From: Paenibacillus sp. cl123
GTDB taxonomy: Bacteria; Bacillota; Bacilli; Paenibacillales; NBRC-103111
Length of the DNA stretch: 64,000 nt
NCBI RefSeq assembly: GCF_900101595.1
Contig: NZ_FMYY01000001.1
Span: 58,735-122,734 of the forward strand
Direction: 5' to 3'
In this document: positions 13,924 through 40,337 of the stretch, piece after piece
How positions within the stretch are numbered: the first letter of the stretch is position 1
Layout: every line of letters starts with the position of its first letter
Notes under the pieces: generated by a model
Database searches by the model: none
Seen by the model: only the letters and a program-made list of their open reading frames with translations
What the model was told of the DNA's origin: nothing
Translations under genes and position numbers: made by a program

Positions 13924-14478
13924 TTGAGGAGAGGAAGCTGGCTGATCTGCGTATTATTGGTGCTGGTTCTGGCGGGCTGCGGCGGCGGTCCGAAGGAGGA
14001 TGTGCCGATCTTTATGATGTCTAAAACGGGCATCCCCGGAGAAGTGGCGGAGAAGCTGGAGAAGGCTCTTATCGCCAAGGTGGGGGAGACGCCGACGGTA
14101 GCGATATCCGCGTCGCCCATGTTCTCGATGGACAAGATGATTGTTGAGATTGCGGCGGGCGGCAACGGCATTCTCATTATTCCTGGCGAGCAGTTCCATG
14201 GGATGAGCAAGCAGGGCGGCTTCGTCCCCTTAGATGATGTGGCGAATCCCGCCGATTTCCCGGACGGGGTGCTGGAGCTGCCGGTCGAGGAGGAAGGCAA
14301 GCCGGCGGATAAGTCGAATCCCAAGCTGGAGAAGCATCTGTACGGCATCCCGATGGAGCATACCAAGTGGTTCAAGGAGCTTGAGCTGAACGGCAAGGAT
14401 TTGTATGCCTTCATCCCTCAGAACGCGAAGGATATTGAGAAGGCGAAGCAGGTTCTGAAGCATATCGCGCAGAAGTAA
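13924..14478 (+). CDS. Lipoprotein of unknown function
   Basis: 184 residues from a TTG start at 13924 (GGAGGG eight bases upstream); an ATG at 13849 would add an N-terminus with no RBS. A basic N-terminus, a hydrophobic segment and LVLAGC give a lipoprotein signal with lipidated Cys about residue 17. The mature part is soluble, with a mixed alpha/beta pattern reminiscent of small periplasmic-binding-type folds, but no family is recognised. It lies upstream of the B12 locus and may be unrelated to it. Confidence 0.75.
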   Translation: MRRGSWLICVLLVLVLAGCGGGPKEDVPIFMMSKTGIPGEVAEKLEKALIAKVGETPTVAISASPMFSMDKMIVEIAAGGNGILIIPGEQFHGMSKQGGFVPLDDVANPADFPDGVLELPVEEEGKPADKSNPKLEKHLYGIPMEHTKWFKELELNGKDLYAFIPQNAKDIEKAKQVLKHIAQK

Positions 14479-14528
14479 CCCCTTAAGTCCGGGACATGCC
14501 CCGGCAGCATCGAGCAGCAGAAGCAGCC

Positions 14529-14582
14529 AAGTCATGCGCAAGTCACAAGTCACAAGTCACGAGCAAGTCATGAGGAAGTCAC
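14529..14582. repeat. Six AAGTCAC/AAGTCAT repeats
   Basis: AAGTCAY heptamers start at 14529, 14540, 14547, 14554, 14565 and 14576 (steps 11, 7, 7, 11, 11). They lie between the lipoprotein gene and the B12 riboswitch, where the btu promoter should be. Confidence 0.85.
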
Positions 14583-14610
14583 GAGCAAGCCGCCCCGGTT
14601 CCCGGGGCAA

Positions 14611-14807
14611 AACGGTTCGGGTGCCCGCGTTCGGACGCGTCAAGCGTCGCGGGTTAAAAGGGAAGCCGGTGCGACTCCGGCGCGGTCCCGCCACTGTAAC
14701 CGGGCGATAAGCCTCCGAGAAAGCCACTGTTTGCCGCGCAAGCGGCGATGGGAAGGCAGGAGTGCGCCGAGAGGAGCCCGGAAGCCAGGAGACCTGCCCG
14801 AACCGTT
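14611..14807 (+). ncRNA. Cobalamin (B12) riboswitch
   Basis: The core shows GGGAAGCCGGTGCGACTCCGG, the GCGGTCCCGCCACTGTAACCGGG core elements (14667-14716 region), GCCACTG again near 14724, and the closing GACCTGCCCG. P1 pairs AACGGTTCGGG (14611-14621) with CCCGAACCGTT (14797-14807) perfectly. Upstream of btuF, so high adenosylcobalamin should shut off uptake and synthesis genes. Confidence 0.95.
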
Positions 14808-14903
14808 ACAGCTGATGCCTTTCGAGGAAAAGGAGCGGCAGCGGTAAGGCGACGACCAGGCAAGCGGCGGCAAATGCCGGCAGCCCTGTCGGTATGAGTC
14901 TGT

Positions 14904-14943
14904 CCTCTGCTCCGGACCGGTGTCCGCTGGCAGAGGTTTTTTT
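14904..14943 (+). terminator. Leader terminator of the B12 riboswitch
   Basis: CCTCTGC (14904-14910) pairs with GCAGAGG (14930-14936), followed by seven T. It lies between the aptamer and btuF, so the switch probably acts by premature termination. I could not define the competing antiterminator. Confidence 0.75.
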
Positions 14944-15070
14944 GTTATGTCTAGGAAGGCTAAGTTCAATAAGTGCCGGCACGCTTACCAGCTTTCGAGA
15001 CGGCAAGAAAATTTCCGCTGAGACGCGGCCTCTTATCGGGAAAAGATATTAATTAAGGGAGAGAAGTAGG

Positions 15071-16093
15071 ATGATAAACGGAAACAAGAGGAAACAAAGA
15101 ACAAGGCAGCTGCTGACGACTGTTCTCGGGCTCGCGCTCACAGTCTCGCTGGCTGCATGCGGGGGAGCGGCCAAGACGCCGAATCAGGGACAGCTTGTCG
15201 ACCCTCCGAAGGCGGAAAGCGGAAGCGGGCAAGGAGCGGCGCAAACAAAGCGCACCTCCTACCCGTTGAAGGTCAAGGATGCGACCGGCAAGGAATTCGT
15301 ATTCGATAAAGCGCCCGAGCGGATCGCCTCCACATCGCCGAGCGAGACGGAGATGCTGTTCGCGCTCGGGCTTGGCGACAAGGTGGTCGGCGTTTCGGAC
15401 TTCTGCGATTATCCGGCTGAAGCGAAGTCGAAGCCAAAGCTCGGCAGCATCACGAAGCCGAACGAGGAAGCGATCATCGCAGCGGGCGCGGATCTGACGC
15501 TGACGGGCGTGTCGATGAAGACGCCGACGGTGGAGAAGCTGCGCGAGCTGAAGGTCAATTTGTTCCAGGTGCAGCCCAAGACAATTGACGACGTGCTGGC
15601 AAACTTGCTGGTCATGGGCGAAATTTTCGACCGCCAGGCCGAGGCAGAGAAGCTGGTCAATCAGATGAAGGCGGACCGCCAGCAGGTAGTTGACGCCGTC
15701 AAAAACTTGAAGCCGGAGCAGAAGAAAAAGGTGTTTATCGAATTTTCCCCGGGCTGGACCGTCGGCTCCGGTGAGTTTCTCAGCGAGCTGATCGAAACGG
15801 CCGGCGGCATCAATGTATACGGTTCGGAGAAAGGGTATGTCAAGCTTAGCGAAGAAAAGGTTATCGCGGAAAATCCGAAGGTCATCTTGTATCCGAACAA
15901 TCTGATCGACGATAAATCGAAGAAGCCGCTGGATCAGCTTATCCGTGAACGCAGCGGCTGGGATCAGATCGATGCGGTGAAGGAAGGCAAGCTGGCCGGC
16001 ATCGATAAGGACACGACGAGCCGTCCGGGACCGCGGATTACCCAAGGCTTGAAGGAAATCGCCAAGGGGATCTACCCCGAACTGGTGAAATAA
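15071..16093 (+). CDS. btuF: Cobalamin ABC transporter substrate-binding lipoprotein
   Basis: 340 residues: signal with lipobox LAAC, a Gly/Ser/Lys linker, and a class III periplasmic-binding domain starting at PLKVKDATGKEF with the hallmark PERIASTSPSETEMLFALGLGDKVVGVS. The fold has two lobes joined by a long helix, as in BtuF/FecB. Siderophore specificity is possible in this family, but the B12 riboswitch upstream and cob genes downstream make B12 the likely ligand. GGGAGA precedes the ATG. The stop overlaps the next start by one base (TAATG). Confidence 0.93.
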   Translation: MINGNKRKQRTRQLLTTVLGLALTVSLAACGGAAKTPNQGQLVDPPKAESGSGQGAAQTKRTSYPLKVKDATGKEFVFDKAPERIASTSPSETEMLFALGLGDKVVGVSDFCDYPAEAKSKPKLGSITKPNEEAIIAAGADLTLTGVSMKTPTVEKLRELKVNLFQVQPKTIDDVLANLLVMGEIFDRQAEAEKLVNQMKADRQQVVDAVKNLKPEQKKKVFIEFSPGWTVGSGEFLSELIETAGGINVYGSEKGYVKLSEEKVIAENPKVILYPNNLIDDKSKKPLDQLIRERSGWDQIDAVKEGKLAGIDKDTTSRPGPRITQGLKEIAKGIYPELVK

Positions 16094-17136
16094 TGAAGCG
16101 CAAGATCATGGTTTGGGGCGGGGCGGCCTTAGGGCTGCTTCTGCTGGCCGTGACCGTTGCGCTTTCCGTCGGCTCGGTGCGTATCCCCTTTCTTCATGTG
16201 TGGAGTATCCTGCTTCATCATCTGCCGGGACTGGAAGGAAGGCTTGGGGGAGGCTGGCTGGCATCCTCCGAGCAGATCGTGTGGAAGGTGCGGCTTCCGA
16301 GGGTGGTGCTTGGCATGCTGGTAGGCGCTGCGTTAGGTCTGGCGGGGGCAGCCTTCCAGGGCGTGCTGCGCAATCCGCTGGCCGATCCGTATACGCTCGG
16401 CGTGTCTTCGGGAGCGTCGGTAGGCGCTTCCTTTCTTATTTTATTCGGGCTGCAGTATGTATTCGGCGAATGGAGCGTTCCCGCAGTCGCATTTTGCACG
16501 GGCGGGGTGTCGCTGCTGCTGGTGTTGCTGCTGGCCAGGACGGACGGAAAGCTTCGGATCGAGACGGTCATCTTGTCCGGGGTCGTGCTGCAGGCTTTTT
16601 TGTCCGCGTTCGTGTCTCTGATGGTCTCGATGTCGAAGCAGGTCATTAATGAAATCGTCTTCTGGCTGATGGGCAGCCTGGCCCTTAGAGGCTGGTCGTA
16701 CTCTCTGCTGATGCTGCCTTATCTGGCCGTCGGCGTGATTGTTCTGCTTGGCTACGGGCGTTCGATGAATCTTTTTGCCCTTGGCGAGAGGCAGGCTGCT
16801 CACCTGGGCGTTCATGTGGAGAGAACGAAGCTGATCGTGCTCATCGCCGCTACGCTGATCACGGCCGCGGCTGTCTCCGTCGCGGGCGTAGTCGGCTTCG
16901 TCGGGTTGCTGGTGCCTCATCTGATACGGCTGATCGTCGGCCCCGATTACCGGCTGCTGCTTCCTTTGTCGGTCATCGGCGGGGCGATCTATGTGCTGCT
17001 GGCCGACACGCTGGCCCGGACGCTGCTGGCTCCGACTGAAATTCCGCTTGGCGTCGTAACGGCTTTCATGGGCGCTCCGTTTTTCGCCTATTTGTTAAAC
17101 CGCCGCAAGCGGCTGGTCCGCGGACAAGAGGTTTAA
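16093..17136 (+). CDS. btuC: Cobalamin ABC transporter permease
   Basis: 347 residues of FecCD/BtuC type with about ten transmembrane helices. Diagnostic stretches: RLPRVVLGMLVGAALGLAGAAFQGVLRNPLADPYTLG (about 70-105) and VAGVVGFVGLLVPHLIRLIVGPDYR with the Gly-rich coupling helix that contacts the ATPase. Its start overlaps the btuF stop. With BtuF and BtuD it makes a type II importer for the vitamin in the cytoplasmic membrane. Confidence 0.93.
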   Translation: MKRKIMVWGGAALGLLLLAVTVALSVGSVRIPFLHVWSILLHHLPGLEGRLGGGWLASSEQIVWKVRLPRVVLGMLVGAALGLAGAAFQGVLRNPLADPYTLGVSSGASVGASFLILFGLQYVFGEWSVPAVAFCTGGVSLLLVLLLARTDGKLRIETVILSGVVLQAFLSAFVSLMVSMSKQVINEIVFWLMGSLALRGWSYSLLMLPYLAVGVIVLLGYGRSMNLFALGERQAAHLGVHVERTKLIVLIAATLITAAAVSVAGVVGFVGLLVPHLIRLIVGPDYRLLLPLSVIGGAIYVLLADTLARTLLAPTEIPLGVVTAFMGAPFFAYLLNRRKRLVRGQEV

Positions 17137-17190
17137 GCGTTTTTATTGAAGCTGTCGGCGATGTTGACGGTGAGATGAGGAGGGAAAAGC

Positions 17191-17982
17191 GTGATCGAGG
17201 TGACGGCCGAGGGCCTGCAGAAGCGATATGGCACGCGGATGGTGCTGGACGGCGTACAATTTCAGGTGAAGCCCGGCGAGTGGTTTGGTATCCTCGGTCC
17301 CAACGGCAGCGGCAAAACAACGCTGCTGCAGGCACTGTCGGGCGTAGAGCCGGTCAACGCAGGCAGCATCCTGCTGGGAGGCCGGCCTGTAGAGGCTTAT
17401 ACGCGCAGAGAGCTGGCGCGCCAGGTTGCGGTGCTGCAGCAGGACGCCCTCCCGCGCATAGGCTTTACGGTGCAGGAAGTTATCGAGATGGGCCGTTATC
17501 CGTATCAGAATTGGCTTGGGGAGGAAACGGGCGATTCCTCCGCGCTGGTTGAGCGGGTGATCCAGTGGCTCAAGCTGGAGCCGCTGCGAGAGCGGACGGT
17601 AGATCAGCTGAGCGGCGGAGAACGGCAGCGCGTGGCGCTGGGCAAGGCGATGGCGCAGGAGCCTCGGCTGCTGCTGCTGGACGAGCCGACGACTTTTCTC
17701 GATATCGGCTACCAGGTGGAGATGATGGATATGGTTCGCCGCTGGCAGAAGGAATGCGGGATGACGGTCATAGCCGTCCTGCATGATCTGAATCTCGCCG
17801 CCCAATACTGCGACCGGCTTATGCTGCTGCATCGAGGCGCGGTAGCCGCGGACGGGGTTCCGCAGGATGTTATGCAAGCCGGCTTGCTGGAGCAAGTGTA
17901 CGGCACCCGGCCGCATGTGCTGGCCCATCCGGCAAGCGGAGTTCCGCAAATTTTACTGGCAGGAGGAAGTCGGGATGAATAA
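17191..17982 (+). CDS. btuD: Cobalamin ABC transporter ATPase
   Basis: 263 residues: Walker A GPNGSGKTT, Q-loop LQQDALPRI, signature LSGGERQRV, Walker B LLLLDEPTTFLD and switch His in VLHDLNLAAQYCDR, the order of a FecE/BtuD ATPase. The GTG start at 17191 has GAGGAGGGAAAAGC upstream. It powers import by the BtuC permease. Its last eight bases overlap the cobT start. Confidence 0.93.
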   Translation: MIEVTAEGLQKRYGTRMVLDGVQFQVKPGEWFGILGPNGSGKTTLLQALSGVEPVNAGSILLGGRPVEAYTRRELARQVAVLQQDALPRIGFTVQEVIEMGRYPYQNWLGEETGDSSALVERVIQWLKLEPLRERTVDQLSGGERQRVALGKAMAQEPRLLLLDEPTTFLDIGYQVEMMDMVRRWQKECGMTVIAVLHDLNLAAQYCDRLMLLHRGAVAADGVPQDVMQAGLLEQVYGTRPHVLAHPASGVPQILLAGGSRDE

Positions 17983-19147
17983 CAGGCTATGGCAAAAGAC
18001 AGCGGCGGGGATTGTGCCGCTTGATGAGGTCTCGGTCGCTCGGGCAGCCGAGCGGCTGGACAGTCTGACCAAGCCGCCGGGCAGTCTTGGCCGGCTGGAG
18101 GAAGTGGCCCGGCAGCTTGCGGGCATGACGGGAGAGCTGACGCCGGAGCTGTCGCGCAAGGCGGTCATCGTGATGGCCGGCGATCACGGCGTTTGCGAGG
18201 AGGGCGTCAGCGCTTTCCCTGCTGAGGTTACGCCGCAGATGGTGCTCAACTTCCTGAGCGGAGGAGCGGCGGTTAACGTGTTGGCGCGGCAGGCCGGAGC
18301 TGAGGTTGTCTGCGTCGATATCGGGGTGAATGCGGAGCTGAGCCATCCGAACCTCGTCTCGCGCAAGGTGCGCCGGGGAACCGCGAATATGGCGGTGGGA
18401 GCCGCGATGACCCGCGAGGAAGCGGAGGCGGCGATAGAAGCGGGCATCGGTCTGGTCGACGAGCTGGCCGGCCGCGGATACCGGATGTTCGCCACCGGAG
18501 AGATGGGGATCGGCAATACGACGGCCAGCTCGGCTATTTTGGCTGTGCTCGGCGATACGGACCCGGAGGCGGCCACCGGCAGGGGGACCGGGATCGATGA
18601 CGAGCGGCTGAAGCATAAGCGGCAGGTAATCGCCAGAGCGATCGCCGTCAACAAGCCGGACGCCCGCGATCCGCTCGATGTGCTGGCCAAGGTCGGAGGG
18701 CTTGAGATCGCCGGTCTGGTCGGCGTCATACTGGGAGCGGCCAACCGCCGCTGTCCTGTCGTGATCGACGGCTTCATCTCGTCGGCCGCTGCGCTGCTCG
18801 CCGCCCGGATCGCTCCGCTCAGCGCCTCGTATATGATTGCGTCGCATCTGTCCCAGGAGCAGGGGCATGCCCGGCTGCTGGAGCGGATCGGGCTGAAGCC
18901 GATGCTGCATATGGATATGCGGCTGGGCGAAGGTACGGGAGCCGTGCTGGCCTTTTCTCTGATCGAAGCGTCGGTGCTGATCATGAAGGAAATGGCGACG
19001 TTCGAGGACGCCGGGATATCGAAGGGCGGAGCAGAAGCGGACGCCGGCGAGGGAGCTGGAGTTGCGGATAGAACGGGAGACAGGCCGGGAGACGGGCTTG
19101 ACCGAAAGGACGTGGCGGCTGCGGACGAAGAGGCGCAGCGGCTATGA
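17975..19147 (+). CDS. cobT: Nicotinate-nucleotide-dimethylbenzimidazole phosphoribosyltransferase
   Basis: 390 residues from ATG 17975 (AGGAGGAAGTCGGG). It transfers phosphoribose from nicotinate mononucleotide to dimethylbenzimidazole, making alpha-ribazole phosphate for the lower ligand of B12. Seen: SLTKPPGSLGRLEE near residue 30, VMAGDHGV, GEMGIGNTTASSA, and DGFISSAAALLA. CobT normally ends near MATFEDAGIS; here about 40 further residues rich in Gly/Asp/Ala/Glu follow (GGAEADAGEGAG onward). The ATGA overlap with cobU means the tail lies directly at the junction. Confidence 0.93.
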   Translation: MNNRLWQKTAAGIVPLDEVSVARAAERLDSLTKPPGSLGRLEEVARQLAGMTGELTPELSRKAVIVMAGDHGVCEEGVSAFPAEVTPQMVLNFLSGGAAVNVLARQAGAEVVCVDIGVNAELSHPNLVSRKVRRGTANMAVGAAMTREEAEAAIEAGIGLVDELAGRGYRMFATGEMGIGNTTASSAILAVLGDTDPEAATGRGTGIDDERLKHKRQVIARAIAVNKPDARDPLDVLAKVGGLEIAGLVGVILGAANRRCPVVIDGFISSAAALLAARIAPLSASYMIASHLSQEQGHARLLERIGLKPMLHMDMRLGEGTGAVLAFSLIEASVLIMKEMATFEDAGISKGGAEADAGEGAGVADRTGDRPGDGLDRKDVAAADEEAQRL

Positions 19148-19884
19148 GCGGCGTAGAGCGGAACTCGGAGAAGCGAGCGGAAGCGATGCGGCAGGAGGAA
19201 GCGCAGCAAGGAAAGGCATTTGCCGAGGAAAAACTGGTTGAGGGAACGCGGCGGGAGGAAGCGAAAGCTGCAAGTGGAGACCGGGAGGAAACGCGGCAGG
19301 AGGAAGCCCAGGCGGACAAGCGGCGGGAAGTCTTCAGCCTGAAGGCACTCGTGACAGGCGGCGCGCGCAGCGGCAAAAGCTCGTTTGCCGAACGGTATGC
19401 GGCCACGCTGGGCAAAGACGGCCTGTACATCGCCACGGCTCAGGCTTATGATGAGGAGATGGAGGAGCGCATCGCGCTCCATCGTAGGGACCGGGAGCTT
19501 CGCGGCTACCGGTGGCAAACGGTCGAGGCGCCGTATGAGTTGGCCGGGGCGATCCGGACGGCGCAGGCGCCGGTCGTGCTGGTGGATTGCCTGACCTTGT
19601 GGCTGTCCAACTGGCTGCTGAGGCTGGAGCAGGAGAAGGAGGCCGCTCGCTTGCTGGATGAGCTGGTGGACGAGCTGGCCGATGCGTTCCGCTCCGCCCG
19701 GCAGCCTATCGTGCTCGTAACCAATGAAGTGGGCAGCGGACTTGTGCCGGAGTACAAGCTGGGGCGGTTGTTCCGCGATGCGTCGGGGCGCATGAACCAG
19801 CGGCTTGCACAAGAGGCGGACCAGCTGTTTCTTGTGACGGCGGGAATTCCGGTGGAGCTGAAGAGCCGGGCTTTTATATACTGA
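19144..19884 (+). CDS. cobU: Bifunctional adenosylcobinamide kinase/guanylyltransferase
   Basis: 246 residues. The conserved enzyme begins about residue 67 with ALVTGGARSGKSSFAERYA (Walker A), then IATAQAYDEEMEERIALHRRDR, DCLTLWLSNWLL and TNEVGSGLVPE; it phosphorylates and guanylylates adenosylcobinamide. CobU is usually about 180 residues. The extra 65 N-terminal residues are charged and repetitive, with recurring REEA/QEEA units, and no domain is recognised. The ATG overlaps the cobT stop (ATGA). No internal start with an obvious RBS was found just upstream of residue 67, but one cannot be ruled out. Confidence 0.9.
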   Translation: MSGVERNSEKRAEAMRQEEAQQGKAFAEEKLVEGTRREEAKAASGDREETRQEEAQADKRREVFSLKALVTGGARSGKSSFAERYAATLGKDGLYIATAQAYDEEMEERIALHRRDRELRGYRWQTVEAPYELAGAIRTAQAPVVLVDCLTLWLSNWLLRLEQEKEAARLLDELVDELADAFRSARQPIVLVTNEVGSGLVPEYKLGRLFRDASGRMNQRLAQEADQLFLVTAGIPVELKSRAFIY

Positions 19885-19996
19885 TCGTTCACAGAAAAAC
19901 TTGGATCAATCGCACGGCGGATAAGAGATCGAAGGACAGGCCCGAGGGGGAGCCGGGAAGCCTGAGCGAACATTGGACTTCGAGAGGAAGCGTCTG

Positions 19997-20041
19997 ATAC
20001 AGGCGTATTTTTTGCCTTTGCAGGCATCATCTTTTTACGGA
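19997..20041 (+). terminator. Weak hairpin between cobU and cbiB
   Basis: An imperfect stem (TGATACAGGC with GCCTttGCaggCATCA, around 19997-20031) followed by a short T tract. It may partly separate cobU from cbiB; low certainty. Confidence 0.3.
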
Positions 20042-20057
20042 TGGCGGGGGACTTCGG

Positions 20058-21044
20058 TTGTTGTTTTATAGCTTGCAAGAAACGCTCTGGATGGCGGCTG
20101 CCGCGATTCTAATCGATTGGATAGCAGGCGATCCGCCATGGCGGTGGCTGCCCCATCCGGTCGTGCTGATCGGACGCTGGATTGGCCTGCTTGAGCGGCG
20201 TCTGCGTCCTTCGGGACGCAGCTTGTCCCCCGCGGCGCTGCGCTGGCGGGGGATCGCGCTTGTTATTCTGACCGTTGGCCTGGCCTATCTTGCAACAGCG
20301 GCTGCGGTGCTGGCGGCGGGATCGATTCACCCGTGGCTCGGCTATGCCGTGAATGTCTGGTTCATCTCGACCACGCTGGCTGTGAAAGGACTGAAGCAGG
20401 CGGCGATGGCCGTGTATATGCCGCTGTGCGAGGGCAGACTGGATGAAGCCCGCAAGTATACCGGCTATATCGTCGGACGGGACACCACAAGACTGGATGA
20501 GCCGGAGCTGACGCGGGCGACGGTGGAGACCGTGGCGGAAAATAGCGTCGATGCGTTCGTCTCGCCGTTATGCTGGGCGCTGCTTGGCGGAGCGCCGCTC
20601 GCGATGCTGTACCGCGCGGCGAATACGCTGGACTCGATGGTCGGCTATAAAAATGAGCAATATGCCGACTTCGGCTGGGCGTCGGCCCGCTGGGACGACG
20701 TGCTTAACTATATCCCGGCACGTCTGGCCGGGGTGCTGCTGATTGGCTGGGCGTATGCGATCCCCGGTTTGTCGGGTACGCGTGCCGCCCGCTCCGTGCT
20801 TCGCTTTGCGAAGCTGCACCCGAGTCCGAACAGCGGAATTCCGGAATCGGCGGTGGCCGGAGCTCTGGGGATTGAGCTGGGAGGCGTCAACGTGTATCAC
20901 GGCCGAACCAGCGAACGGGCCCGGATGGGCTGGCCGCTGAGAGCCAGGGAGCGGGAGGATATCCGCTCGGTCGTGCGGATTTTGTACGGGATAAGCTACA
21001 TCATGGCGGGAGGACTGGTTATATGGGGGCTGCTGCTCGTGTGA
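20058..21044 (+). CDS. cbiB: Adenosylcobinamide-phosphate synthase (CbiB/CobD)
   Basis: 328 residues, membrane enzyme that attaches aminopropanol (phosphate) to adenosylcobyric acid. Family marks: DWIAGDPPWRWLPHPVVLIGRWI at the N-terminus, the GRDTTRLDEPELTRATVETVAENSVDAFVSPLCWALLGG core, and RLHP-like ARSVLRFAKLHPSPNSGIPESAVAGALGI. Start is TTG 20058 (or the adjacent TTG 20061) with GGGGGA upstream. It overlaps cobS by 22 bases. Named cbiB here to avoid confusion with CobD decarboxylases. Confidence 0.92.
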   Translation: MLFYSLQETLWMAAAAILIDWIAGDPPWRWLPHPVVLIGRWIGLLERRLRPSGRSLSPAALRWRGIALVILTVGLAYLATAAAVLAAGSIHPWLGYAVNVWFISTTLAVKGLKQAAMAVYMPLCEGRLDEARKYTGYIVGRDTTRLDEPELTRATVETVAENSVDAFVSPLCWALLGGAPLAMLYRAANTLDSMVGYKNEQYADFGWASARWDDVLNYIPARLAGVLLIGWAYAIPGLSGTRAARSVLRFAKLHPSPNSGIPESAVAGALGIELGGVNVYHGRTSERARMGWPLRAREREDIRSVVRILYGISYIMAGGLVIWGLLLV

Positions 21045-21979
21045 TCAAGGAGGCCGGCGCAGCCTGTGCGGCGGCCCTGCAGTTTTTGACCCGGCTGCCG
21101 GTTCCGGTCAAGCTGGACTATCATGACGCTTTGTTTCGCCGGAGCGTTATTTTTTATCCGCTGGCCGGCTGGCTGCTGGGCACGCTGACGGCGGCCTTCG
21201 GCGTGCTGCTCGCAGATGTGCTGGAGCTGCCGGCCTCGGTGACGGCGGCGCTCACGCTCGGCTGCTGGGTGGCCCTCAGCGGGGCGCTGCATCTCGACGG
21301 TCTGATGGATACTGCCGACGGCGTGCTGAGCCACCGTTCGCGGGAGCGCATGCTGGAGATTATGAAGGACAGCCGGGTCGGGGCGATGGGCGTTATCGTA
21401 TGCGTGCTGGTGCTGCTGTTGAAATGGACCCTGCTCGCAGAGCTGCTGCCCGAATCGGGAAGCGTAGGCGCATCGTCCTGGCTGCTGCTGCCGCTGGTCA
21501 CGCTGTGGAGCCGCTGGTTTATGGCTGCGGCCATTTGGGGCTGGCCTTATGCCCGTTCACGCCAGGCAAGCGGCACCGAGGACGGTACAGGCACGGGCAT
21601 AAACAGCGGCCCGGCGAATTCGCTCCCCTCTTCGTCCGGCGAGCCCGCAGACGCTTCCTCTGGGAGCGCCGCTTCGGGCGGGCTGGGGGGCTTGTTCCAG
21701 GGCACCGGGCTCAGGCATGTGCTGGCTGCGGCAGGCTTGGCTATGCTGCTGACTTGTGCGGCGATAGCGGTGCCCTCAGCGCTGGACTGGTTGTCGCTGA
21801 CAGCGGGACAAGGGCTTGGTCTTGTGCTGGGCATGGCAGCCGGCGCGGTTGTAGCGGGTTCGGCTATGGCGGCATATTTGAACAGCAAGCTGGGAGGACT
21901 GACCGGCGATACGTACGGGGCGATCAATGAGCTGTTGGAGGCGGGACTGCTGCTGATCATCGTGATGCTGGCAGTATAG
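21023..21979 (+). CDS. cobS: Adenosylcobinamide-GDP ribazoletransferase (cobalamin synthase)
   Basis: 318 residues, a multi-helix membrane enzyme joining GDP-cobinamide to alpha-ribazole. Seen: LQFLTRLPVP, a conserved GALHLDGLMDTADGV with the metal-binding Asp/His set, SHRSRERMLEIMKDSRVGAMGV, and LGGLTGDTYGAINEL at the end. CobS is usually about 250 residues; the extra length is an inserted Gly/Ser/Thr/Ala-rich segment at about residues 178-228 (from QASGTEDGTG to GGLGGLFQ). ATG 21023 lies inside cbiB; GTG 21041 is an alternative start. Confidence 0.92.
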   Translation: MGAAARVIKEAGAACAAALQFLTRLPVPVKLDYHDALFRRSVIFYPLAGWLLGTLTAAFGVLLADVLELPASVTAALTLGCWVALSGALHLDGLMDTADGVLSHRSRERMLEIMKDSRVGAMGVIVCVLVLLLKWTLLAELLPESGSVGASSWLLLPLVTLWSRWFMAAAIWGWPYARSRQASGTEDGTGTGINSGPANSLPSSSGEPADASSGSAASGGLGGLFQGTGLRHVLAAAGLAMLLTCAAIAVPSALDWLSLTAGQGLGLVLGMAAGAVVAGSAMAAYLNSKLGGLTGDTYGAINELLEAGLLLIIVMLAV

Positions 21980-21999
21980 AGAGAAGGAGGCTGAGCGTA

Positions 22000-24930
22000 A
22001 TGCTGGAACGGTACGGACATGGCGGGGATTTGTGGACAGCTGAGGAGCTGTACGGCATCCCTAGGGAAAAGATGATCGACTACAGCTCCAATATGAATCC
22101 GCTGGGACCGCCCGATGCGGTCAAAACGATCATGACCGAGAAGTGGAGGGAGCTCATCCACTACCCCGATCCGGCCGTGCGCGAGCTGACGGCCCGATTG
22201 GCGGCGAAGCATGGAGTGGAGCCCTCTTGCGTGCTGGTCGGCAACGGTGCGGCTGAGCTGATCGATCTGGCGGTCCGCATGCTTCGCCCGCGGGTAACGG
22301 GGCTGGTGAGCCCCTCATTCGGCGAGTATGAGGAGACGGTGGAGAGAGCGGAGGGTCGGAGCATCGGCATCGCGACCGACGAGCCGAGCGGGTTCGTGCC
22401 TGCGCTTGAAGCGCTGCGGGAAGCGGCCGGCTCATGCGATGCGCTGATTCTCGGCCATCCGAACAATCCGACCGGCCGGGTGCTGCCGGAGGAGGTGCTG
22501 CGCTGGCTGGCCGCCGGCGCGGACGGCAGCCGGGTAGTGGTGGACGAGGCGTTCCTCGACTTTACCGAGCGCGAGGAGCAGCTTACGCTGGCCCGCGAGG
22601 CGGCGGCGAGCGCTCACCTGATCGTCATCCGCTCGATGACGAAGTTCTACGCGGTGCCGGGCATCCGGCTCGGCTATGCAATCGCACACCCGGATGTAAT
22701 CGCCCGGATGCGGCGTCTGCAGGTCCATTGGAGTGTAAACGCGCTCGCCCAGTGGATCGGTTTGGCCGCACTCGCAGACAGCGGTTACTCGCAGCGGACG
22801 CTGGCCTGGCTGCCTCCCGCGAGAGACAGGATGACGTCCGGGCTGCGTGAACTCGGACTTCAGGTGTATGAGAGCGATGTGAACTTTATTTTATTTACGG
22901 TGAAGCCGCTCGGGTTAAAAATCACCGATGTGCAGCGCGAGCTGGGCCGACGGGGCGTATTGCTGCGCGATGCTTCGACTTTCAAGGGGTTGGACGATAC
23001 TTATGGGCGTCTGGCCGTCAAAGAGGAAGCGGACAATATGAGGGTGCTCCGGATGCTGAAGGAAGCGCTTGAGACGTTAACGCATGCGCGGGGCGAGGTC
23101 CAGACTCTGGGCCAAGCTCAGACGCAGGTTCGGACCCAGGCACAGGTTCAGGAGCAGGTTCAGGAGCAGATTCGGACCCAGGAGCAGGAACAAGGCCAGA
23201 TTCAAACGCAGATGCAGGTTCGGGGCCAGGTCGTGCCTGCAGAGCCGGTGCCGGCCTCCCTGATGCCCGCTGTCGGCACAAGGTCTGAGCGGCCGACCGC
23301 CCCGGCGAGCTTGGCGAAGACCATCATGCTGCAAGGGACGGCCTCCGATGTCGGTAAAAGTCTGCTGACGGCGGCGTTGTGCCGCATCCTGCTGCAGGAC
23401 GGCTGCCGGGTGGCTCCGTTCAAGTCGCAGAATATGTCGCTGAACTCTTATGTCACTCCGGACGGCAAAGAGATCGGCAGGGCGCAGGGGATGCAGGCTG
23501 ACGCCTGCCGGATCGCGGCGACGACGGACATGAATCCGATCCTGCTGAAGCCGAAGAAGGATATGGTGTCGCAGGTCGTCGTTCACGGGAAACCTTATCG
23601 GGACCTGGACGCCAGGACATATAGAGAGAAATATTTGCCGGAGGCGGAGACGGTCGTGAAGGAAGCGCTTGGCCGGCTGCGCCAATCGGTCGATGTCGTC
23701 GTGATGGAAGGGGCCGGCAGTCCGGCGGAGGTTAACCTGAAGAGCCGGGATATCGTCAACATGCGGTTGGCAGGATGGGCGGATGCGCCGGTGCTGCTCG
23801 TAGCCGACATCGACCGGGGAGGCGTATTCGCTTCGCTCGTCGGCACGCTGGACATTTTGACCGAGGAGGAGCGGGCAAGGGTCAAGGGCTTCGTGATCAA
23901 CAAGTTTCGCGGCGATGTGACGCTGCTGAAGCCGGGCCTGGATTGGCTGGAGGCGCGTACCGGCAAGCCGGTGCTGGGAGTTGTGCCGTATTTGCCGGAT
24001 CTTGGGCTGGAGGACGAGGACTCGGCATCGCTCGACCGCAGGCTGGCGGAGGAGCAGACGAAATCACTTGCAGCAGAAGGCCGTTCTTCGGAAGCCGACG
24101 GCCCGAAGCTCGACATTGCTGTCATCCGCCATCCCCGGCTGTCCAACTTCACCGATATCGACCCGCTGCTGCAGGAGCCGGACGTGCGAATCCGCTTCGT
24201 GACGAAGGCGGCCGAATTCGGCCATCCGGATGCCGTCATTTTGCCCGGCAGCAAGAACACCGTGGATGATCTGCTCCAGCTGCGCGAGGCCGGTCTTGAC
24301 CGGGAGATCGTCCGGCTGGCAGCGGCGGGCGGCTGGGTCGTGGGCATCTGCGCGGGGTATCAGATGCTGGGCCGGCGGCTGCTTGATCCGGAGCTGGTGG
24401 AGTCGGGCCTTGCCGAGCTGTCCGGACTTGGCTTGCTTCCTGCCGAGACGGTATTCGCCGCCGACAAGCGTACCGTACGCGCGGAGGGCCGTACATCGCT
24501 GTATGCGGCCCCTGGCAGTCACTATCCGATCACAGGTTATGAAATCCATATGGGCCGCACGTCCTTTCTGGAGCCGGTTGAACATCCGTTTATACTGAAG
24601 CCGGAGCCTGGCGAACTGGAAGGAGAGTCTGGCACGGGAGAAGGGAAGCCGGAAGGCGACTATCCTCAAGATCGGAAAGGTCAGCTTGCCCATGACGGCA
24701 TCGTGACGGGAGACGGACGGATCTGGGGCACTTATCTTCATGGCATCATGCATAATGATGATTTCCGCCGTGCCTTTCTGAACCGGATACGCGCCGGCAA
24801 AGGGCTCGCTCCGCTGGAGCCGGAGCTGCGCTTCCTGGAGCGCCGGGAGGCGGCGTTCGACCGGCTGGCCGAGCATGTGCGCGGAAGCTTGGATATGACG
24901 CGTTTGTATGAGATGATTAATAATCAATAA
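22000..24930 (+). CDS. Fusion: threonine-phosphate decarboxylase + cobyric acid synthase
   Basis: A single 976-codon frame encodes two enzymes. Residues 1-355 are a PLP decarboxylase of the CobD/CobC type (histidinol-phosphate-aminotransferase fold): YSSNMNPLGPP, GNGAAELIDLA, HPNNPTGR, VDEAFLDFTE and the PLP Lys215 in SMTKFYAVPGIRLGY. It yields aminopropanol phosphate. Residues about 440-976 are cobyric acid synthase (CbiP/CobQ), amidating the corrin: P-loop GTASDVGKS at 446, FKSQNMSLNSYVT, and a class I glutaminase domain with Cys784 (GICAGYQM) and His914 (YLHGI). Between them is an about 85-residue Gln-rich repetitive linker. A second low-complexity insert is near residues 867-890. Normally these are separate proteins; the order in the operon (cobS upstream, adenosyltransferase downstream) fits both activities. 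Confidence 0.95.
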   Translation: MLERYGHGGDLWTAEELYGIPREKMIDYSSNMNPLGPPDAVKTIMTEKWRELIHYPDPAVRELTARLAAKHGVEPSCVLVGNGAAELIDLAVRMLRPRVTGLVSPSFGEYEETVERAEGRSIGIATDEPSGFVPALEALREAAGSCDALILGHPNNPTGRVLPEEVLRWLAAGADGSRVVVDEAFLDFTEREEQLTLAREAAASAHLIVIRSMTKFYAVPGIRLGYAIAHPDVIARMRRLQVHWSVNALAQWIGLAALADSGYSQRTLAWLPPARDRMTSGLRELGLQVYESDVNFILFTVKPLGLKITDVQRELGRRGVLLRDASTFKGLDDTYGRLAVKEEADNMRVLRMLKEALETLTHARGEVQTLGQAQTQVRTQAQVQEQVQEQIRTQEQEQGQIQTQMQVRGQVVPAEPVPASLMPAVGTRSERPTAPASLAKTIMLQGTASDVGKSLLTAALCRILLQDGCRVAPFKSQNMSLNSYVTPDGKEIGRAQGMQADACRIAATTDMNPILLKPKKDMVSQVVVHGKPYRDLDARTYREKYLPEAETVVKEALGRLRQSVDVVVMEGAGSPAEVNLKSRDIVNMRLAGWADAPVLLVADIDRGGVFASLVGTLDILTEEERARVKGFVINKFRGDVTLLKPGLDWLEARTGKPVLGVVPYLPDLGLEDEDSASLDRRLAEEQTKSLAAEGRSSEADGPKLDIAVIRHPRLSNFTDIDPLLQEPDVRIRFVTKAAEFGHPDAVILPGSKNTVDDLLQLREAGLDREIVRLAAAGGWVVGICAGYQMLGRRLLDPELVESGLAELSGLGLLPAETVFAADKRTVRAEGRTSLYAAPGSHYPITGYEIHMGRTSFLEPVEHPFILKPEPGELEGESGTGEGKPEGDYPQDRKGQLAHDGIVTGDGRIWGTYLHGIMHNDDFRRAFLNRIRAGKGLAPLEPELRFLERREAAFDRLAEHVRGSLDMTRLYEMINNQ
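23095..23235 (+). repeat. Degenerate CAG-rich repeat encoding Gln-rich linker
   Basis: Imperfect repeats of CAGGTTCAGGAG and CGGACCCAGG type encode a Gln/Val/Thr/Arg-rich stretch (QVQEQVQEQIRTQEQEQ and similar) joining the two enzymes of the fusion. The pattern suggests growth by slippage or unequal exchange. Confidence 0.85.
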
Positions 24931-24960
24931 GTGATGCGCACGATACAAGGAGGGCTTGGG

Positions 24961-25536
24961 ATGCGGATATATACACGAACAGGAGATGCCGGACAGACCG
25001 GCGTAATAGGCGGACGCGTAGACAAGGACGACGACCGCGTGGAGGCTTACGGCACGACGGATGAGCTGAACTGCTTCGTCGGCCAGGCGATGGGATTCCT
25101 CGACCCGGTGCGGGATGCCGACATGCTGGACGATCTGCTGGAGATTCAGCATGAGCTGTTCGACTGCGGCTCGGATCTCGCTTTGTTGAAGCAGGAGCTG
25201 CGCCCGTACAAGGTGAAGGCCGAAATGGTGGACCGGCTGGAGACATGGATCGACAAATATGACGCCGAGACGCCGGATATCCAGCGGTTTATTTTGCCGG
25301 GAGGCTGCCTTGCTTCATCGGCGCTGCATGTATGCCGGACCGTATGCCGCAGAGCGGAGAGGCGCGTCGTTACCCTGGCCAGGACCCAGCCTATCAATGA
25401 GGAGGTCCGGCGTTATTTGAACCGGCTTTCCGACCTGTTTTTTACGATCGCCAGAACGGCGAATTTCCGGGCCGGCGTACCGGATGTGGAATATGCGAGG
25501 AGTGCGGAAGTGTTCCGCCGCAAGTCCAAGTCATGA
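24961..25536 (+). CDS. ATP:cob(I)alamin adenosyltransferase, PduO type
   Basis: 191 residues. Signature: MRIYTRTGDAGQTGVIGGRVDKDDDRVEAYGTTDELN at the N-terminus (ATP-binding TRTGDxGxT) and RVVTLARTQPINEEVRRYLNRLSDLFFTIAR near the C-terminus, as in PduO/MMAB-type corrinoid adenosyltransferases. It converts cob(I)alamin or cob(I)yrinate diamide to the adenosyl form. ATG 24961 is chosen for its AAGGAGGG; a GTG/ATG pair 30 bases upstream lacks an RBS. It overlaps the RluA-type gene by four bases (ATGA). Confidence 0.93.
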   Translation: MRIYTRTGDAGQTGVIGGRVDKDDDRVEAYGTTDELNCFVGQAMGFLDPVRDADMLDDLLEIQHELFDCGSDLALLKQELRPYKVKAEMVDRLETWIDKYDAETPDIQRFILPGGCLASSALHVCRTVCRRAERRVVTLARTQPINEEVRRYLNRLSDLFFTIARTANFRAGVPDVEYARSAEVFRRKSKS

Positions 25537-26483
25537 CAGCCTATTACAAGCCTCTGGAGTACGAGGTGCCGCCGGAGGACGAAGGTCTGCTGCTGCGCAC
25601 TGTGCTGCAGAAGCGGATGGGGCTTTCCCGCAAGCTGATCTCCCGGCTGAAGCTGACGGAGGAAGGCATTACGGTCAACGGGGAACGCAAATATATCGAT
25701 GTCGCAGTACGAGCGGGCGACCTGGTTGCGGCGCGCATGGCCGAGGAGGACTCGGAGGATATTTTGCCTCAGCCTATGCCGCTGAACATTTTGTACGAGG
25801 ATGATGATCTGCTCGTCCTGGACAAGCAGGCCGGCATCATCGTTCATCCGACGCATGGCCATTATACGGGAACGATCGCGAACGGAGTCGTCCATTATTG
25901 GAAGGAGCGGGGGGCAAGTTTCCGCTTCCGTCCGATTCACCGGCTGGATCAGGAAACATCGGGTTGCCTGGCCATAGCCAAAAATCCGTATATCCACCAG
26001 CAAATCTCGGAGCAGATGCAGGCGGGTGGCCTCAAGAAGGAATATCTCGCGCTGGTCCATGGAGACGTGGTGCCGGATAAAGGCACGATCGATGCCCCTA
26101 TCGACCGCAATCCCGACTCGCCCCATATCCGGATCGTAATCGAGACGGGAGCTCGCGCTGTCACGCACTTCCGGGTGGAGCGGCGATTCGGAGCCGCCAC
26201 GCTCGTCCGGCTAAGGCTGGAGACAGGCCGCACGCATCAGATTCGGGTGCACATGAAGCATCTGGGTTATCCGTTGGTCGGCGACAGTATGTACGGTTTG
26301 CCGGATGCGGAGGTCCCCGGTCTGATCGGCAGACAGGCGCTGCATGCGGCCACGCTAGGCCTGACGCATCCTGCTCTTAAGAAATGGATGGAGTTCGAGG
26401 CTCCGGTTCCGGCAGATATGCTGGCATGCGCCAGGCTTCTGGAGGAGGCTGGGGGGCCGACAGTCACAAAGGACGTGCCCTGA
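25533..26483 (+). CDS. RluA family pseudouridine synthase
   Basis: 316 residues. An S4-like N-terminal domain (residues about 18-70, LLRTVLQKRMGLSRKLISRLKL) precedes the catalytic domain with HRLDQETSGCLAIAKN, whose Asp is the catalytic nucleophile, and the later RTHQIRVHMKHLGYPLVGDSMYG. RluA/RluD-type enzymes isomerise uridines in 23S rRNA or tRNA. Translationally coupled to the adenosyltransferase gene though functionally unrelated to B12. A bidirectional terminator follows. Confidence 0.93.
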   Translation: MTAYYKPLEYEVPPEDEGLLLRTVLQKRMGLSRKLISRLKLTEEGITVNGERKYIDVAVRAGDLVAARMAEEDSEDILPQPMPLNILYEDDDLLVLDKQAGIIVHPTHGHYTGTIANGVVHYWKERGASFRFRPIHRLDQETSGCLAIAKNPYIHQQISEQMQAGGLKKEYLALVHGDVVPDKGTIDAPIDRNPDSPHIRIVIETGARAVTHFRVERRFGAATLVRLRLETGRTHQIRVHMKHLGYPLVGDSMYGLPDAEVPGLIGRQALHAATLGLTHPALKKWMEFEAPVPADMLACARLLEEAGGPTVTKDVP

Positions 26484-26622
26484 AGGAAGCAGGAAGAGCA
26501 GCTAGTTTCAGAGGTGGCCTGCAGGAAGCTGGAGGGCCGCTAACGGCCGCCTAAGGCGGTCAAGGAAGCGCCGAATACGCGAAGCTCTGCCGGCCGGCAA
26601 GCTCCGCTATGCCGCAACAGAC

Positions 26623-26669
26623 AAAAACGCAAGCCATTCCGCCATACAAACGGAACGGCTTGCGTTTTT
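26623..26669. terminator. Bidirectional terminator between convergent genes
   Basis: Nineteen-base arms (26623-26641 and 26651-26669) pair with one mismatch around CCATACAAA, with A5 on the left and T5 on the right, ending both the cob/rluA operon and the minus-strand YdcF-like gene. Confidence 0.9.
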
Positions 26670-26765
26670 GCGACGTATACAAGTTGGACAGGAAGTTGTT
26701 TGTACAGAGGCTGGCCCGCGTAAGCCTTTGCCCGGCTGGGCGGCTGAGACGGCCTGTACTCCCGC

Positions 26766-40163: not shown

Positions 40164-40337
40164 CTCTTATCAAGAGCAGGTTGAGGGACTAGCCCGATGA
40201 TACCCGGCAACCGACACAAGATGGCGTTAGCTCACCCCTCGCGGTGATGCGGCGGCTGCCAGCTTGTGCACGGTGCTAATTCTTGCGGAGCCTTTTACTG
40301 GGGAGCTTCTCCAGGCAAAGATTCTGACAGATGAGAG
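40164..40337 (+). ncRNA. SAM-I (S-box) riboswitch
   Basis: Core sequence CTTATCAAGAGCAGGTTGAGGGACTAGCCCGATGATACCCGGCAACC (40165-40213) is the conserved S-box 5' half. P1 pairs CTCTTATC (40164-40171) with GATGAGAG (40330-40337). The 3' arm continues into GAGAGAGG, which can instead pair with the terminator's CCTTTCTCTC (40360-40369): an OFF switch that stops metA transcription when SAM is high. Confidence 0.96.

Follow-up and report, generated by a model that had tools for sequence, protein, structure and literature searches.

The window analysed here, a 64,000-nucleotide stretch of a Paenibacillus sp. cl123 contig (NZ_FMYY01000001.1), carries at positions 22000-24930 a single gene in which the cobalamin enzymes CobD, a threonine-phosphate decarboxylase, and CbiP/CobQ, the cobyric acid synthase, are joined through a linker. 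We consider it very probable that this gene encodes a bifunctional CobD-CbiP protein which derives from the merging of two neighbouring genes, is old in its lineage and, in this genome, most likely acts on imported precursors. Its most interesting aspect is that the fusion persists although the genome has apparently lost corrin-ring synthesis; this suggests a role in salvage, one open to testing.

The open reading frame listing of the window gives one forward-strand frame of 976 codons, free of internal stops, in agreement with an earlier note made from the sequence alone. The N-terminal part matches the NCBIfam CobD model TIGR01140 over residues 7-353, with 314 bits for a cut-off of 290.55, and reaches only 197.5 with the hisC model TIGR01141, under its cut-off of 276.55, which argues for CobD rather than HisC. 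The top match by sequence for this part in the PDB is 1lc5, an L-threonine-O-3-phosphate decarboxylase. The C-terminal part, residues 440-973, spans positions 1-479 of the 480 in the NCBIfam CbiP/CobQ model NF001989 (637.7 bits, cut-off 273), scores 540.8 with TIGR00313 (cut-off 309.9), and contains both the ATPase and the glutaminase parts (PF01656 and PF07685 of Pfam). The description of the protein as a pyridoxal phosphate (PLP) decarboxylase followed by a complete CbiP/CobQ is thus borne out, and Lys215, the P-loop at 446, Cys784 and His914 lie where the note had placed them. Their conservation rests on an alignment of 22 rows of fused proteins, in which Lys215, Lys453 of the P-loop, Cys784 and His914 do not vary; a separate motif check failed in 20 of 108 rows, partly from clipped match ends or narrow patterns. 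We take Lys215 to be the PLP-binding residue, and Lys453, Cys784 and His914 to have the catalytic roles known from their families. No further full CbiP turned up in this genome, whose two strongest CobD-like matches outside the fused gene score highest as HisC, over the HisC cut-off. Positions 22000-24930 therefore encode a real single frame that runs from CobD through a linker into a complete CbiP.

The set of relatives comprised 60 genomes; besides this one, 24 came from its genus, 12 from its family and 23 from its order. CobD and CbiP share one open frame in 23 of the 24 same-genus genomes; in the exception (G012), which is 84% complete, the locus is split over several frames. Nine of the 12 same-family genomes have both domains, fused in two of these nine (G034 and G035), the family members G029 and G030 being judged from open-frame length alone. 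G026, G031 and G056 showed long open frames as well, and a closer look gave separate genes. A second set was made of named loci, the best 80 of 312 relatives from a contig scan, a selection that favours near kin. Two of them (L087 and L106) gave CbiP alone and were left out; 36 of the remaining 78 loci, all of which have both domains, are fused, every fused one labelled Paenibacillus. Among the 42 separate loci, L070 and L078 have broken frames, were counted there by rule and were omitted from the tree; L078 reads from CobD through a linker into CbiP before its frame breaks, and is possibly a fused gene that contains an error. A larger tally (63 of 108 fused, window and L001 included) contains duplicates, and our counts are those of the named set.

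A join created by assembly or sequencing error, for which the tandem repeat inside the linker might speak, has next to no probability, because the same architecture recurs in these two sets of relatives. No frameshift was found between about 23080 and 23300, a region that the earlier note had singled out, and assemblies of other species have the same architecture. What does not stand is the rarity that the note implied by calling these normally separate proteins: the fusion is the rule in the same-genus genomes, and papers describe it outside the genus. As to whether it is already widely annotated in the genus, the 23 genomes speak for the gene itself, annotation lying outside that count.

The same architecture was also sought further afield. 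It was found, besides Paenibacillus relatives, in two plasmid-collection records, from Trichlorobacter (L133) and Leptospira (L135); across 119 genomes of the phylum (own included; 66 with a match at 1e-40), no other frame reached the length that both domains require, 732 amino acids being the maximum. Both plasmid-collection records are annotated "cobyric acid synthase" only, so that pathway reconstructions may miss CobD. Plasmid records covering at least 80% of the query numbered 17, of which H1, H4, H10 and H16 were looked at; the Subdoligranulum record (H4) has genes that abut but are separate, and H16 carries no annotation at the site. In the sampled phylum genomes we also noticed paired adjacent CbiP-like matches (G060:C73, G097:C13, G173:C6 and G138:C3).

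Is the frame translated as one polypeptide? Close to the CbiP domain, 24 of the 42 separate loci have a strong Shine-Dalgarno-like motif with an in-frame start, versus two of the 36 fused ones; in the window the same rule finds neither a weak nor a strong motif ahead of an in-frame CbiP start. It is therefore very improbable that an internal start additionally yields CbiP on its own, the cell then holding fused and free forms, even if some fused relatives have weak motifs, and those two strong ones, in or near the linker. For the same reasons a two-gene reading with an internal CbiP start found little to favour it. Selection was gauged from the ratio of nonsynonymous to synonymous changes (dN/dS, Nei-Gojobori). 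Comparison with the P. puerhi locus (L038) gave 0.17 in CobD, 0.11 in CbiP and 0.47 in the linker, and three pairs of more closely related fused genes gave 0.08-0.14, 0.07-0.11 and 0.46-0.78, respectively. These are signs of purifying selection on both domains. Two points temper this picture of a single, selected polypeptide: the strong motif is also missing in 18 of the 42 separate loci, and the ratios against L038 are rough because synonymous divergence (dS) is 0.9 for CobD, 1.1 for CbiP and 2.6 in the linker.

In the relatives with separate genes, cobD directly precedes cbiP, and the gap is mostly no more than some tens of bases. By the rule applied, 36 of the 42 separate loci have a cbiP frame that continues without a stop to a point before the end of cobD; the genes may overlap or abut there, the open frame alone not fixing the cbiP start. 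The adjacent cobD and cbiP would thus have become a single reading frame. Two loci with separate cobD genes deserve mention in their own right. A CbiP-like frame of only 293 residues, seemingly without the glutaminase part as we read it, follows a separate 360-residue cobD at L122:2602-3483 (G040), and near-identical repeats form a run immediately upstream of cobD at L120:426-1283 (G056).

A quick tree was built from both domains, the linker being left out, and in it a main clade unites 35 fused rows with a Shimodaira-Hasegawa-like approximate likelihood ratio support of 99. P. flagellatus, P. mesophilus and P. hemerocallicola make another fused group, and P. oryzae stands as a third; the Trichlorobacter and Leptospira rows sit far outside these Paenibacillaceae groups, in a tree that holds no separate genes from other families near them. 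By the approximately unbiased (AU) test, placing all 38 fused rows in one clade was rejected (p 0.0014), as was joining P. oryzae to the main clade (p 0.034); joining the P. flagellatus group to the main clade was not (p 0.292). These values are to be read with the facts that the groups were chosen after viewing the tree, that the trees are quick and that P. oryzae (L069) is a long branch flagged by the tree program; the test omits L133, L135, the duplicates L034, L037 and L119, and L012. One origin for every Paenibacillaceae fusion was accordingly set aside, and because the test rejects one clade of fused rows the fusion likely arose at least twice in Paenibacillaceae, apart from the Trichlorobacter and Leptospira fusions. 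Counts of changes on the tree cannot separate gain from loss. In one Paenibacillus lineage the fusion is, by these comparisons, old.

The linker had been described as Gln-rich and encoded by CAG-rich repeats, and so it is: Gln makes up 18 of its 76 residues (24%) and CAG 15 of its 76 codons, and a 42-base tandem repeat lies within it (Table 1). In the 36 named fused loci the linker is 20-96 residues long (median 40); that of L056, at 23% Gln, is the sole one to approach the Gln content found here. This comparison makes the Gln-rich linker a local expansion and not a hallmark of fusion; by composition, the Gln-rich, CAG-rich linker is a trait of this lineage rather than of the fused architecture.

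The reactions of CobD, CbiP and CbiB are well established. The N-terminal domain would convert L-threonine phosphate into (R)-1-amino-2-propanol O-2-phosphate, the C-terminal domain would amidate adenosylcobyrinic acid a,c-diamide to adenosylcobyric acid, and CbiB, encoded two genes upstream of the fusion, would join the products of both. The earlier note had reasoned that both products feed CbiB, which agrees with the known biochemistry. Since neither domain's product is the other's substrate, the fusion would most likely provide equal amounts and a shared localisation, and not channelling between its own sites.

It could also provide nothing. The stop between the adjacent genes may have been lost and the join have persisted as harmless, a neutral course to which we give somewhat less than an even chance. 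It would agree with a linker that is highly variable in length and letters and whose dN/dS exceeds that of the domains, and with active sites that, from pathway knowledge, pass no substrate to each other. However, the frame has stayed intact across the lineage despite many changes in linker length, and the fusion probably has at least two origins in Paenibacillaceae, besides those in two other phyla. The first of these objections is weak, because the loss of the internal start would by itself force the frame to be kept without any gain. With a lineage-wide fusion beside relatives that have separate genes, nature would provide a test of any benefit in joining two enzymes that are not consecutive but supply one later enzyme.

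The earlier note took the pathway to be a de novo one. However, this genome appears to have lost corrin-ring synthesis. Family searches for CbiD, CbiC, CbiG and CbiJ gave no match anywhere in this 54-contig draft of 99.98% estimated completeness, some control genomes having matched; these genome-wide searches covered those four ring genes and not CbiL, CbiH, CbiF, CbiE or CbiT. In the nearest relative compared, the ring genes occupy about 10.3 kb adjoining cbiA. There cbiH, cbiJ, cbiD, cbiE/T, cbiL and cbiF are over the NCBIfam cut-offs and the chelatase-like, cbiC-like and cbiG-like genes under them, cbiC and cbiD being over the Pfam cut-off. Here the site has shrunk to about 0.3 kb (C17:48274-48604), upstream of the window and inside a 955 kb contig, and is flanked on one side by cbiA and then a long aligned stretch. 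The cbiA gene itself (G000:C17:48572-50117, upstream of the window) lies in two frames of 341 and 285 open residues versus one frame of 537 residues in the relative; a GATase_3 match at C17:49521 is its second half. With the ring genes unmatched, their site reduced and cbiA split, the fused enzyme would most likely serve salvage, working on corrin precursors imported from outside and not in de novo synthesis.

Could the missing ring genes simply be an assembly gap, the fusion still serving de novo cobalamin synthesis? Most same-genus relatives do have ring genes and the genome is a draft, but we find this very unlikely: the expected site falls within one contig, aligned on both sides with only that short interval between, the four family searches were empty in a genome estimated to be nearly complete, and three more fused genomes (G020, G022 and G035) are likewise without CbiC and CbiD. 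Other observations count against salvage as we propose it. On the other flank of the site only about 1 kb aligns, after which 11 kb here and 6 kb in the relative are unaligned, and the split of cbiA could be decay after ring loss or a sequencing error in the draft. Moreover, CbiC is kept in 22 of the 24 same-genus genomes, and for this reason the fusion did not arise for salvage. A tie between fusion and ring loss is likewise unsupported, fusion being found in all but one of these same genomes.

A similar gene content is seen in the partial pathways called "Acbr" and "Aba" in PMC6593275, which are read there as signs that cobyrinate diamide or cobyrinate is salvaged. For "Acbr" the paper lists CbiP, CbiB, CobU, CobS, CobC/CblZ, CobT, CobD and BtuR/PduO. 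Of these, we looked for and found CbiP, CbiB, CobU, CobS, CobT, CobD and PduO here; the absence of CbiC, CbiD, CbiG and CbiJ matches and the split CbiA fit its ring-less definition, with five ring genes outside the search and a split that is possibly a sequencing error. A table of the review PMC8123684 seems to place Paenibacillus taxid 1033743 in the group that has CbiP and CobD and lacks ring genes. This taxid is P. senegalensis JC66, and that species has separate cobD and cbiP genes (L099).

Our preferred reading of a fusion most likely serving salvage can be carried further, to a scenario that we hold to be doubtful. After ring loss, the fused protein would be the entry enzyme for cobyrinic acid a,c-diamide shed by other microbes and would deliver both CbiB substrates at the membrane, ring loss being graded among fused genomes. 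A cbiA over cut-off is present in G022 and G035, and none in G020. If the scenario were true, a series would run from the full pathway, through ring lost and cbiA kept (G022 and G035), then ring lost and cbiA split (this genome), to the loss of both ring and cbiA (G020). These several apparent stages would also allow one to test whether corrin precursors made by neighbours sustain some Paenibacillus.

The fusion lies in a tight run of genes that begins downstream of a cobalamin riboswitch (Table 1). The relative taken to be P. puerhi shares this synteny, its btuFCD being 86-92% identical. It is plausible that the run from the riboswitch to pduO forms one transcript. A pattern scan of 14400-26700 on both strands counted 17 terminator-like sites vs 8.6 in shuffles, some of those on the forward strand lying inside the run.

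Table 1. Features of the cobalamin gene run and of the fused gene, in window positions
Feature	Positions	Strand	Evidence and remarks
Cobalamin riboswitch, upstream of gene run	14602-14815	+	Rfam RF00174, 110.5 bits, gathering threshold 31.5
btuF (probable corrinoid ATP-binding cassette importer)	15071-16093	+	Name from reading sequence and riboswitch
btuC (same importer)	16093-17136	+	As btuF
btuD (same importer)	17191-17982	+	As btuF
cobT	17867-19147	+	PF02277; overlaps btuD, true start may be later
cobU	19144-19884	+	NF004469 over cut-off, PF02283
cbiB	20058-21044	+	TIGR00380 over cut-off, PF03186
cobS	21023-21979	+	TIGR00317 over cut-off, PF02654
CobD domain (threonine-phosphate decarboxylase, PLP enzyme)	22000-23079	+	Residues 1-360; TIGR01140, PF00155
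Lys215 (PLP lysine, CobD domain)	22642-22644	+	
Linker	23080-23307	+	About residues 361-436; borders are ends of query pieces and tblastn matches
42-base tandem repeat in linker	23118-23213	+	2.3 copies; Tandem Repeats Finder (TRF) score 108, 74% matches
CbiP/CobQ domain (cobyric acid synthase)	23308-24927	+	Residues 437-976; NF001989, TIGR00313, PF01656, PF07685
P-loop motif (CbiP domain)	23335-23361	+	Residues 446-454
Cys784 (CbiP domain)	24349-24351	+	
His914 (CbiP domain)	24739-24741	+	
PduO-type cob(I)yrinate a,c-diamide adenosyltransferase	24931-25536	+	Immediately after fusion stop; TIGR00636 over cut-off, PF01923

Low-complexity stretches occur in three genes of this one run, in the fusion linker, CobU and CobS. 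The CobU N-terminus (19144-19340) has about 65 charged low-complexity residues outside the alignment with the relative's gene, possibly from a wrong start, and CobS has a low-complexity insert around residues 180-220 that is shorter in the relative. Elsewhere in the window, an S-adenosylmethionine riboswitch (RF00162) lies at 40164-40337. Positions 1-930 of the window and G000:C17:57207-58459 match the relative's region repeatedly, with the matches offset by about 108 bases; this suggests a repeat array, although TRF listed none in the window.

We found no publication on a CobD-CbiP fusion in Paenibacillus in the open-licence full-text literature, and orthologous fused genes occur in P. puerhi, P. 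validus, P. elgii, P. ehimensis and others of the genus, with linkers that differ in length and letters. The P. puerhi fused protein is 77% identical to the one described here, and the genes on either side keep their synteny in the relative assigned to P. puerhi. The bifunctional CobBC family (NF053748) also joins a CobD/HisC-like domain to a corrin amidase, but there the amidase is CobB and the HisC-like part is C-terminal; the protein here scores 181.8 bits for a cut-off of 950 and does not belong to it. Closer counterparts exist outside the genus. A CobD/CbiP fusion is described in PMC3403914 on both the chromosome and the plasmid of Geobacter (Trichlorobacter) lovleyi SZ (Glov_3554 and Glov_3679), and is said there to align fully with a Pelobacter carbinolicus orthologue. 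The plasmid copy (L133, 863 amino acids) has the same domain order as the protein here, and both equivalog models are over cut-off. It is from a different phylum, is 44% identical over the alignment and has its domain matches about 13 residues apart, versus 76 here. In Leptospira, LB_151 is named "histidinol-phosphate aminotransferase and cobyric acid synthase" in PMC4758666. The L. interrogans record L135 (863 amino acids), which from its neighbouring genes we infer to correspond to LB_151, sits between cobU and cbiB and has again the same domain order; it is 38% identical to the protein here, and its CobD part scores 267.1, under the TIGR01140 cut-off. The architecture is thus already in print outside Paenibacillus, and the fusion described here is a further case of a known architecture.

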